From Fibrobacter sp. UWB16 (GTDB taxonomy: Bacteria > Fibrobacterota > Fibrobacteria > Fibrobacterales > Fibrobacteraceae): a DNA stretch of 64,000 bases. The notes below the pieces were generated by a model, which saw nothing but the letters and a program-made list of their open reading frames with translations, had not been told where the DNA came from and did not search any database. The DNA lies in assembly GCF_900215325.1 (NCBI RefSeq), contig NZ_OCMS01000001.1:868001-932000 (forward strand), in the 5' to 3' direction. Positions 9,776 to 47,940 of this stretch are shown here, piece after piece. Made by a program: the position numbers and the translations under genes. The stretch's first letter is position 1; each line of letters begins with the position of its first letter.

Positions 9776-10008
9776 TTCAGATATGAGATATGCGGAAAGC
9801 GTATTCCAAAATGAAACATTGGGCTTTACATTTTTTATTCGGATAGAGCCAATCACCGCGCCCAACTTGTCACGTTTTGAAAAATTTGTTATATTTTTAC
9901 GACAATTTTACAAAATCACGACAGAAATATCGGCCTTTCGGAGCCACGAAAACCGCGAAACCGACATTTAATGGACTTTTTGTAAAAAATTTGGAAAATT
10001 TTACACAA

Positions 10009-10025
10009 TTGGCACGCAACTTGCT
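10009..10025 (+). promoter_or_regulatory. Sigma-54 (RpoN) promoter for the sigma factor gene
   Basis: TTGGCACGCAACTTGCT matches the -24/-12 consensus TGGCACG-N4-TTGCW at every conserved base, with the correct 10-nt distance between the GG and GC doublets. The expected transcript start is near 10036, leaving a short leader with AGGAGCAAGG before the ATG at 10062. No sigma-70 promoter of similar quality is visible nearby. RpoN promoters need an enhancer-binding activator, whose site I cannot identify. Confidence 0.85.
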
Positions 10026-10061
10026 TTAAAAAAGCGATATTATAGGAGCAAGGTTTTTAAA

Positions 10062-10874
10062 ATGCATATTGATTCTACCGATACTACTCTCAAAAGATAC
10101 CTAGAAGATATTCGTCGCACTGCACCTCTCTCCCGCGAAGAAGAACAGATTCTATTCCAGAAAGCTAAAGAAGGCGACAAAATCGCCCGTAAAAAGCTGA
10201 TTTCCGCAAACATGCGCTTTGTTTTGAAGGTCGCCATTCAGTACCGTGGCTGCCCGATTCCGCTTCCGGACTTGGTCAGTGAAGGCGCAATGGGCCTCGT
10301 ACGCGCTATTGAATCGTTCGAACATACCCGTGGTCTTAAATTCATCAGTTACGGCGTTTGGTGGATCAAGGCATACATTACTCGCGCTATTAACGAACAG
10401 GGCAACCTCATCCGCTTGCCGGCAAACCAGCACCTCCGCGTGCGTAAGGCTTTGCACGAACAATCCCGCGGTAAGGAAATCAACGAAGAAATCCGTGAAT
10501 TGATTCAGATCGGTCAGCGCGGCGTTTCGTTCGACAGCCCGCTCAAGGCAGACTCCAAGGCTACTTACGCCGAAGTTCTCCCGGACAGTGGCGCATCGAA
10601 CCCGGAAGCCGATTCCGAAATCCAGAGCGTCGAAGCTTTGGCCCGCGACCTCATGGAACAGCTCCCGGAACGTGAAGCCCGAGTCATCACCGGCATTTTC
10701 GGCATCAACCAGGAAGCACCGCAGACTCTCCGCGAAGTGGGCGAATCCATGAACATCTCCCACGAACGTGTGCGTCAGTTGCGCGACCAGGCTCTCCGCC
10801 GCATCCGCAAGTACAACAGTAAGGACTTCTTGCAAGAAAAGAAGGACGCATTCTTGGCCGCTATCAACAAGTAG
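10062..10874 (+). CDS. RNA polymerase sigma factor, RpoD-related (group 2/3)
   Basis: A 270-residue sigma-70-family protein lacking region 1.1. It begins in region 1.2 (DTTLKRYLEDIRRTAPLS). Region 2 contains DLVSEGAMGLVRAIESF and the -10 recognition stretch FISYGVWWIKAYITRAINEQ (near residues 95-120), and region 4 contains LREVGESMNISHERVRQLR (near residue 225), a helix-turn-helix for the -35 element. The size and the exact region 2.4/4.2 motifs fit an alternative RpoS- or SigA-like factor rather than the essential RpoD, which is usually longer. The gene is preceded by a perfect sigma-54 promoter, implying a sigma cascade. A REP-like hairpin with a T-run follows. Confidence 0.92.
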   Translation: MHIDSTDTTLKRYLEDIRRTAPLSREEEQILFQKAKEGDKIARKKLISANMRFVLKVAIQYRGCPIPLPDLVSEGAMGLVRAIESFEHTRGLKFISYGVWWIKAYITRAINEQGNLIRLPANQHLRVRKALHEQSRGKEINEEIRELIQIGQRGVSFDSPLKADSKATYAEVLPDSGASNPEADSEIQSVEALARDLMEQLPEREARVITGIFGINQEAPQTLREVGESMNISHERVRQLRDQALRRIRKYNSKDFLQEKKDAFLAAINK

Positions 10875-10894: not shown

Positions 10895-10928
10895 TGTCAT
10901 GCCCCGCTCCGACGGGGCATCTCCTTTT
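10895..10928 (+). terminator. REP-like hairpin acting as terminator of the sigma factor gene
   Basis: ATGCCCCG/CGGGGCAT with a six-base loop is followed by TCTCCTTTTTAT. It is a member of the dispersed palindrome family and also lies between the convergent sigma factor and hemW genes, so it may terminate both. Confidence 0.65.
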
Positions 10929-12159: not shown

Positions 12160-12188
12160 TTTACAATTGGAACTTTTATTTCTATAAT
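12160..12188 (+). promoter_or_regulatory. Sigma-70 promoter of the first tRNA-Gly gene
   Basis: TTTACA (12160-12165), a 17-bp spacer and a perfect TATAAT (12183-12188) end 11 bp before the tRNA. The spacing leaves almost no 5' leader. Confidence 0.85.
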
Positions 12189-12199
12189 TGGGTCACCTC

Positions 12200-12272
<73 letters not shown>

Positions 12273-12282
12273 CTAAAAAAAA

Positions 12283-12311
12283 AGAGCCTAGCGTCAAGCT
12301 AGGCTCTTTTG
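12283..12311 (+). terminator. Intrinsic terminator after tRNA-Gly copy 1
   Basis: AGAGCCTAGC-GTCAA-GCTAGGCTCT is a perfect 10-bp stem preceded by nine A and followed by TTTTG, directly downstream of the tRNA. Confidence 0.85.
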
Positions 12312-12407
12312 TTTTATACACAGAATTAGACGAGAACCAGAGAAGAGGGCGCGACCAAATTCTTTCGTGGCTCTCAAAAAAATTTCACTTTTTTCGGGCC
12401 GCACCCC

Positions 12408-12436
12408 TTTATAACTACAAATTTTATTTCTATATA
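12408..12436 (+). promoter_or_regulatory. Sigma-70 promoter of the second tRNA-Gly gene
   Basis: TTTATA (12408-12413), 17 bp, then TATATA (12431-12436), in a block that is nearly identical upstream of copy 3 and similar upstream of copy 1. Confidence 0.75.
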
Positions 12437-12448
12437 TGGGTCACCCTC

Positions 12449-12521
<73 letters not shown>

Positions 12522-12530
12522 CTAAAAAAA

Positions 12531-12565
12531 AGAAAAACCACCTACAAAGGTGGTTTTCTTTTTTT
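12531..12565 (+). terminator. Intrinsic terminator after tRNA-Gly copy 2
   Basis: ACCACCT-ACAA-AGGTGGT, flanked by an A-run and by TTTTCTTTTTTT. The same hairpin with one changed loop base follows copy 3. Confidence 0.85.
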
Positions 12566-12604
12566 ATATCGTAATTTGGACGAGGACCCGAGAAGAGGGG
12601 CCGA

Positions 12605-47088: not shown

Positions 47089-47940
47089 ATGTTAAATATT
47101 GACGAAATTGGCGATTACAGAGATCTACTGAAAAATTTCTTCGTGCAGAAGAAATTGGAATTTCCGCTATTTTCCTATAAGATGATGGGACAAAAACTTG
47201 GACTCGAAACGAGCCAGGTTTTCCGTGTATTGAATAAGGAATCCCACCTCCCCGCGCAGAGTATCCCGCTCTCCAAAAAATTGCTCGGGCTCAAAGGCCG
47301 CGATGGAGAACTTTTTGAGATTTTGGTAGCGGCATCGCGCACAAAATCCAAAGCAAAAAAAGATAAGCTTTACAAGATGGCACTCGCATTGCAAGACGTG
47401 AGCCTCCGCAAACTGAATTCCAACGAAATTTTATTCCTCAGCCGCTGGTGGATACCCGTAGTCCGTTCGATTATCGAAATCAATGGCGGCAAGGCCGATG
47501 TCCACACCTTGGTTAAGCAGATTACGCCAGCCGTTTCCGAGGACCAGGTGAAAGAAGCCATTCGAGTCTTGAAAGAGCTCAAGATGATTACGCCGCTCGC
47601 CTCCGAACGTTACGCCGTTTCGACCGTCAATTTTACATCGGCAGGGGCAACCAAAGTTACCGCCATTCGCAGTTACCAGAATCAACTGCTTACGCTTGCG
47701 CAAAACGCGCTCGTCAACATTCCGCCAAGCGAGCGCAACATTTCATCTATTCTCGCTTGCGTTGATGACGAATGTCTTGAAGATCTCGTCGAGATGACTT
47801 GCGAATTTCGCAGACAAGTTCAAAAACGCGTTGCCGAAGTTGCAGAGCCAAAGAAGGTCATGCAGTTCATCTTCTCGCTGTACCCGGTTGCCGATATTTC
47901 GGACAAAGAAACAACAAAAGAAAAAGCGAGGATAGCATGA
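47089..47940 (+). CDS. TIGR02147/DUF4423-family protein (Fibrobacter paralogous regulator-like)
   Basis: A 283-residue cytoplasmic protein. The start MLNIDEIGDYRDLLKNFFVQ and SYKMMGQKLGLETSQVFRVL (residues 29-48, HTH-like) and the C-terminal half (KLNSNEILFLSRWWIPVVRSI, VNIPPSERNISSILACVD, FRRQVQKRV) match TIGR02147, a group known mainly from F. succinogenes with DUF4423, thought to be transcription regulators. Its stop overlaps the start of the downstream lipoprotein gene by 4 bp (ATGA). This tight pairing suggests that the regulator controls that lipoprotein, or that both form a regulator and surface-protein cassette. Confidence 0.83.
   Translation: MLNIDEIGDYRDLLKNFFVQKKLEFPLFSYKMMGQKLGLETSQVFRVLNKESHLPAQSIPLSKKLLGLKGRDGELFEILVAASRTKSKAKKDKLYKMALALQDVSLRKLNSNEILFLSRWWIPVVRSIIEINGGKADVHTLVKQITPAVSEDQVKEAIRVLKELKMITPLASERYAVSTVNFTSAGATKVTAIRSYQNQLLTLAQNALVNIPPSERNISSILACVDDECLEDLVEMTCEFRRQVQKRVAEVAEPKKVMQFIFSLYPVADISDKETTKEKARIA

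Follow-up and report, generated by a model that had tools for sequence, protein, structure and literature searches.

We conclude with good confidence that sigX of Fibrobacter, the gene of an alternative sigma factor, is transcribed by the RpoN RNA polymerase from a -24/-12 promoter at positions 10009-10025, that an enhancer-binding protein (EBP) acts at a dyad further upstream, and that the protein L101 is the most likely activator. The gene lies within a window of 64 kb, by which we mean the whole stretch of DNA that was analysed (G000:C1:868001-932000, where G000 is the genome of the window). The features on which the argument is built are collected in Table 1.

Table 1. Features of the sigX transcription unit (positions in the window) and the gene of its candidate activator (position in the genome).
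Feature	Position	Strand	Basis or remark
Possible second, sigma-70-type promoter TTGTCA-N17-TATATT	9867..9895	+	score 11/12; -10 overlaps the dyad
Putative enhancer (UAS) dyad TTGTTAT-ATTTTT-ACGACAA (TTGTTATATTTTTACGACAA)	9886..9905		12/14 to the ideal dyad
Sigma-54 promoter, -24/-12 elements TTGGCACG-N4-TTGCT	10009..10025	+	exact consensus match and conservation
Predicted transcription start, within the GCGATATT block	10036	+	geometry (C of TTGC = -12); about the position of the preliminary description
Ribosome-binding site region AGGAG..AAGG	10044..10053	+	sequence; AAGG conserved
sigX, likely alternative sigma-70-family factor (270 aa)	10062..10874	+	regions 1.2, 2, 3, 4; no region 1.1; region 3 shortened
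Intrinsic terminator-like hairpin 3' of sigX	10899..10920	+	closes a single-gene unit
L101, EBP gene	G000:C1 ~488064-489434		beside proC; Sigma54_activat and HTH_8

Results

The sigma-54 promoter and its conservation

A preliminary description of this DNA had pointed to TTGGCACGCAACTTGCT as a perfect sigma-54 promoter. We find the site at exactly this place, 53 nt upstream of the sigX open reading frame. The -24 GG and the -12 GC stand at fixed spacing in the context TGGCACG-N4-TTGCW and all specified bases match. The pattern TGGCACGNNNNTTGCW occurs in the 64-kb window only here, against a mean of 0.01 in shuffled sequences, and it has 13 matches in the genome against none for the reversed control pattern. 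Because glutamine synthetase and glnK-amtB, both classical RpoN targets, are among the genes with one of the 13 exact sites, we take the motif to be the organism's own RpoN motif. RpoN itself is encoded at G000:C4:143955-144443 (Sigma54_DBD E = 9e-51) and is present in 28 of 28 Fibrobacterota genomes.

The promoter should then be kept by the orthologues, as the same description had asked to be checked. The GG...GC doublets are indeed retained at 74 of 80 orthologous loci, and at 65 of the 80 the site has at least 11 of the 13 consensus bases, with the start codon nearly always 52-66 nt downstream. Within the genus Fibrobacter, where nine records encode an identical or near-identical SigX of 270 amino acids (F. 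succinogenes type), the DNA further upstream can for the most part not be aligned; the -24 and -12 blocks and the CGATATT block at the expected start are kept nonetheless. Nine distant Fibrobacteria (L085-L093) carry at the same place the weaker forms CTGGAACG-N4-TTGCT or GG-N10-GC, whose single-sequence chance values range from below 0.0005 to 0.13. No sigma-54 site was found at six of the 80 loci (L076, L082, L083 and the Fibrimonas-type loci L095-L097). As sigX is kept there without the site, control by RpoN is not indispensable to sigX function. Loss of RpoN was rejected as the cause, since no sampled Fibrobacterota genome lacks it.

Nearly all sigX orthologues of Fibrobacter share the block GCGATATT (10034-10041), which falls on the predicted start and follows TTGCT by 9-11 nt. 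CGATATT lies where transcription is expected to begin, and GCG is frequent at this place in other sigma-54 promoters of the genome too. The TATT part of the block is conserved without an explained role. Reading CGATATT as a -10 box together with TTGGCA was rejected because the spacing is 21-23 nt and variable. Elsewhere in the window TGGCACTCGCATTGCA (47378-47393) is one base off the full RpoN consensus; it lies within a coding frame of 283 amino acids (47089-47940) and is probably a chance occurrence.

SigX and its sigma class

The gene behind the promoter had been described as coding for a sigma-70-type factor without region 1.1, and this is borne out: the Pfam models Sigma70_r1_2, r2, r3 and r4 all score above cut-off. 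The label RpoD-like, on the other hand, was too loose, as SigX lies at much the same distance from RpoD/SigA as from RpoS and forms a clade of its own. No relative found outside the phylum shares more than 38% identity with it. In the tree the SigX proteins come together in a single clade (support 100/99) that is separate from the RpoD, RpoS and L003 groups, L003 being another sigma factor of the organism; E. coli RpoS groups with the RpoD sequences and SigX stands apart, the deeper placement being unsure owing to long branches. Against the RpoD_Cterm model SigX reaches 158 bits (cut-off 354) and, with A and H at the equivalents of Q437 and R584, it falls outside group 1 (RpoD/SigA). L003 too scores below this cut-off (189 bits), so that the score alone cannot separate the two proteins. 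The scores are likewise far from the cut-offs for RpoS (TIGR02394, NF004207; 193.9 bits, cut-off 378.7) and RpoH (TIGR02392; 126 bits, cut-off 323).

Promoter-contact residues are altered in all aligned SigX proteins. In region 2.4 K-A-Y replaces R-Q-x, such that WWIRQ reads WWIKA, and in the helix of region 4.2 H replaces R at the equivalent of E. coli R584. In E. coli numbering these invariant changes affect the equivalents of R436, Q437 and R584. Part of region 3 is also absent from every aligned SigX protein. At the contact positions of regions 2.4 and 4.2 L003 has retained the canonical residues, and it is nearer to the RpoD of Bacteroidota (42% versus 36% for SigX). Judged by its sequence SigX is therefore neither RpoD nor RpoS, and its clade, in which promoter-contact residues are altered, is specific to Fibrobacterota. 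On the basis of the contact residues, the identity to Bacteroidota RpoD and the tree, we consider SigX to be likely an alternative sigma factor and L003 likely the primary one. The genome encodes two other sigma-70-family factors besides SigX.

The upstream dyad

We searched for dyads common to 34 representative sigX upstream regions and obtained GTCAT-N6-ATGAC. This core is present with at least 9 of 10 bases in 18 of the 34 representatives versus 0.5% of shuffles, a contrast that is weakened by shared ancestry. The full dyad TTGTCAT-N6-ATGACAA reaches at least 11/14 in 53 of 81 upstream regions versus 20 of 810 shuffles. In the window the distance from the beginning of the dyad to the -24 element is 123 nt, and the dyad is centred at about -140 from the predicted transcription start. 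Nowhere else does the genome match TTGTYAT-N6-AYGACAA exactly, and it is the best dyad of the window. Across genomes the dyad is phased to the -24 element, its positions following a periodicity of roughly 10.3-10.5 nt (R = 0.71, n = 23, Rayleigh p < 1e-4), figures which shared ancestry again weakens. At 12/14 the dyad was found at no other RpoN promoter examined. Nor was it found in the F. intestinalis group, though L101 and the RpoN site are present there.

Two motifs that accompany other RpoN promoters of this organism, GTTTC-N5-GAAAC at chaperone genes and TTACA-N5-TGTAA at nitrogen genes, show no enrichment over shuffles upstream of sigX and were rejected as its enhancer. An enhancer candidate spotted by eye at the outset, TTTCGGAGCCACGAAA (9937-9952), was dropped since it was not recovered as a dyad shared by the orthologues.

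A candidate activator

The genome encodes seven EBPs. One of these, L101, combines a sigma-54-interacting AAA+ domain with a Fis-type helix-turn-helix. For the first 130 residues Pfam gives no match; they resemble a degenerate receiver in which the acidic pair is missing and the usual acceptor position is occupied by D or N. Of the 13 genus-level genomes in which sigX has its RpoN site, 12 encode full-length L101; none of the six genomes that lack the site (G012, G015, G016, G026-G028) does so. A simple count that ignores ancestry puts this co-occurrence at about 3e-4, and related genomes are not independent samples. The exception is G002, a 1.9-Mb assembly which has the site and in which L101 was not found. 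Most telling is G012, a member of the genus: it has lost both the site and L101, whereas RpoN, the sigma-54 site of dnaK and EBPs of five other types are still present.

The recognition helix points in the same direction. RTALYNRL is invariant in six genomes with the full dyad; in G008, where the helix reads RTALHNRA, the core of the dyad is kept and the flanks are not, and the helix differs in genomes where the dyad was not found. We thus propose as a hypothesis, for which there is good circumstantial support, that L101 pairs with the dyad.

A possible second promoter

Further upstream TTGTCA-N17-TATATT could be a sigma-70-type promoter of sigX (null P ~0.003). It is identical in close relatives of the F. 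succinogenes type, and a similar TTGnnA-N17-TATATT is present upstream of most other orthologues. Other genomes have the TATATT on the downstream side of the dyad; in the window the -10 hexamer overlaps it, and so one of the two elements may be only apparent here. This overlap makes the second promoter uncertain in the present genome.

Discussion

We suggest that the relay could proceed in the following steps. An AAA+ EBP bound to the dyad would loop to the -24/-12 promoter, the RpoN polymerase held there would then melt the DNA, and sigX would be transcribed. SigX in turn would steer the polymerase to promoters of its own. The preliminary description had proposed such a cascade, with an RpoN activator switching on an alternative sigma factor. 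The cascade is supported by a promoter kept amid diverged surroundings, the phased dyad, the matching profile of an activator and the specificity changes of the sigma factor. That RpoN is the sole switch does not follow, because the upstream promoter may express sigX as well and RpoN may boost rather than solely switch. If this promoter is real, it would provide basal expression to which RpoN adds an induced level. RpoN very probably turns on sigX; it is activation itself, and with it the direction of control, that we infer from these sequence features.

Several other explanations have to be weighed. Short motifs can arise by chance, but with 0.01 sites expected in the window and the large majority of the orthologous loci keeping the site at the same place, a chance match is practically out of the question. 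It could further be argued that SigX is the housekeeping sigma factor of Fibrobacter and that its control by RpoN amounts to control of general transcription. SigX evolves very slowly and is indeed better conserved at class distance (70-74% identity) than L003 (60-66%). However, its contact residues in regions 2.4 and 4.2 are off the primary-sigma consensus in all aligned orthologues, whereas L003 has the consensus residues and the closer relationship to Bacteroidota RpoD, which makes this interpretation very improbable. 

The remaining explanations concern how sigX is controlled. Transcription might come mainly from the upstream sigma-70-type promoter. The dyad would then be the operator at which this promoter is repressed or activated, and the sigma-54 promoter would contribute a minor second input. 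The high score of the hexamers, their similar counterparts at most orthologues and the overlap of the -35/-10 region with the dyad speak for this. Yet across the genus the upstream hexamers are less well conserved than the sigma-54 element, and the dyad is at enhancer distance, phased to the -24 element and in its form follows L101; we therefore regard this arrangement as unlikely. More serious is that RpoN may control sigX through another activator, such as L099, L103 or L104, the last of these a GAF-domain protein, or may do so with no specific enhancer. L099 and L103 types were found in nearly all genomes sampled, and in G012 sigX (L076) has a divergently oriented L104-type gene as its neighbour. 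This is, however, the very genome that has lost the sigma-54 site of sigX, for which reason the adjoining L104-type gene was rejected as activator, and no EBP gene was found within the retrieved flanks of any other locus. Moreover, L098 and L104 are not among the classified EBPs of G007, which has site and dyad (1 of its 4 EBPs being unclassifiable), and only L101 tracks the site both in its presence and in its recognition helix. We hold another activator to be possible though rather doubtful, and L101 to be the most likely activator of sigX.

RpoN-dependent sigma genes are known elsewhere, such as the flagellar sigma-28 genes and hrpL. Direct control by RpoN of a stress-type sigma factor of the sigma-70 family is chiefly known from Borrelia. 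The closest known system is the Rrp2-RpoN-RpoS pathway of Borrelia burgdorferi, in which an NtrC-type activator and RpoN transcribe the gene of a sigma-70-family factor from a -24/-12 promoter (PMC2940757, PMC4014564, PMC3037356). The first step, a sigma gene behind such a promoter, appears to be shared. In contrast to the Borrelia pathway, SigX is not an RpoS orthologue by scores and tree, a conserved dyad lies in phase upstream of sigX, the receiver-like domain of the candidate activator is degenerate, and Fibrobacter is not a pathogen. A 2025 survey links sigma genes of COG1191, COG0568 and COG1508 with sigma-54 promoters (PMC12316311), such that sigma genes as RpoN targets are already a known class in general. 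In the parts of this survey that bear on the question the COG0568 link is a general one, with neither activator nor enhancer for such a gene, and Fibrobacter is absent from its main text. Our literature search found no paper on RpoN in Fibrobacter and no regulatory literature for the phylum Fibrobacterota. The RpoN-sigma relay is known as a kind, and the Fibrobacter instance and its parts are new. A second case in a main rumen cellulose degrader, conserved over the genus and coming with a recognisable enhancer as well as a candidate activator, offers an entry into the gene regulation of this phylum and gives specific, testable predictions.

RpoN appears to serve further genes. Exact or near-exact sites precede groES-groEL, dnaK, clpB, htpG and grpE in the genome of the window (L005, L006, L009, L016, L113). 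The dnaK site is present in all genus-level genomes from which the gene was retrieved, often with GTTTC-N5-GAAAC upstream, and was not found in more distant lineages (loci L121-L144). As neither HrcA nor a further sigma factor of the RpoD/RpoH type was found in the genome, RpoN may run the heat-shock chaperones, which suggests that it carries the chaperone response in the genus Fibrobacter. The survey cited above also describes sigma-54 control of chaperone genes in Bacteroidota (grpE, groES) and Planctomycetota (PMC12316311); the likeness to Bacteroidota concerns the wider regulon and not sigX, where the chaperone enhancer motif is not enriched. Tentatively, one may imagine that the genus handles protein-folding stress through RpoN instead of HrcA or sigma-32, with separate chaperone and nitrogen enhancers, and that SigX was added as a clade-specific stress sigma factor with its own activator, in a relay independent of that of Borrelia. 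A role of SigX in stress or starvation would fit this picture.

Some minor observations from the same genome may be added. The RpoN sites at purF, ilvB, pyrG, a type III-like glutamine synthetase, glnK-amtB and gltB (L011-L015, L112) have an upstream TTACA-N5-TGTAA dyad (9-10/10), likely a nitrogen enhancer. Those before spoVG-comM (L010) and a HigB/HigA-like pair (L117) have in common GATTAATC repeats about 83 nt upstream, a putative third enhancer type. The site before secA (L119) is near-exact and accompanied by a near-complete dyad of the GTTTC-N5-GAAAC type (9/10), and exact sites precede the genes of a secreted coiled-coil protein and an outer-membrane porin-like protein (L007, L017). 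Finally, the frame at 12188-12574 of the window contains AGIAQLVEHDLAKVGVEGPSPFSRSKKK twice, which points to a tandem repeat.
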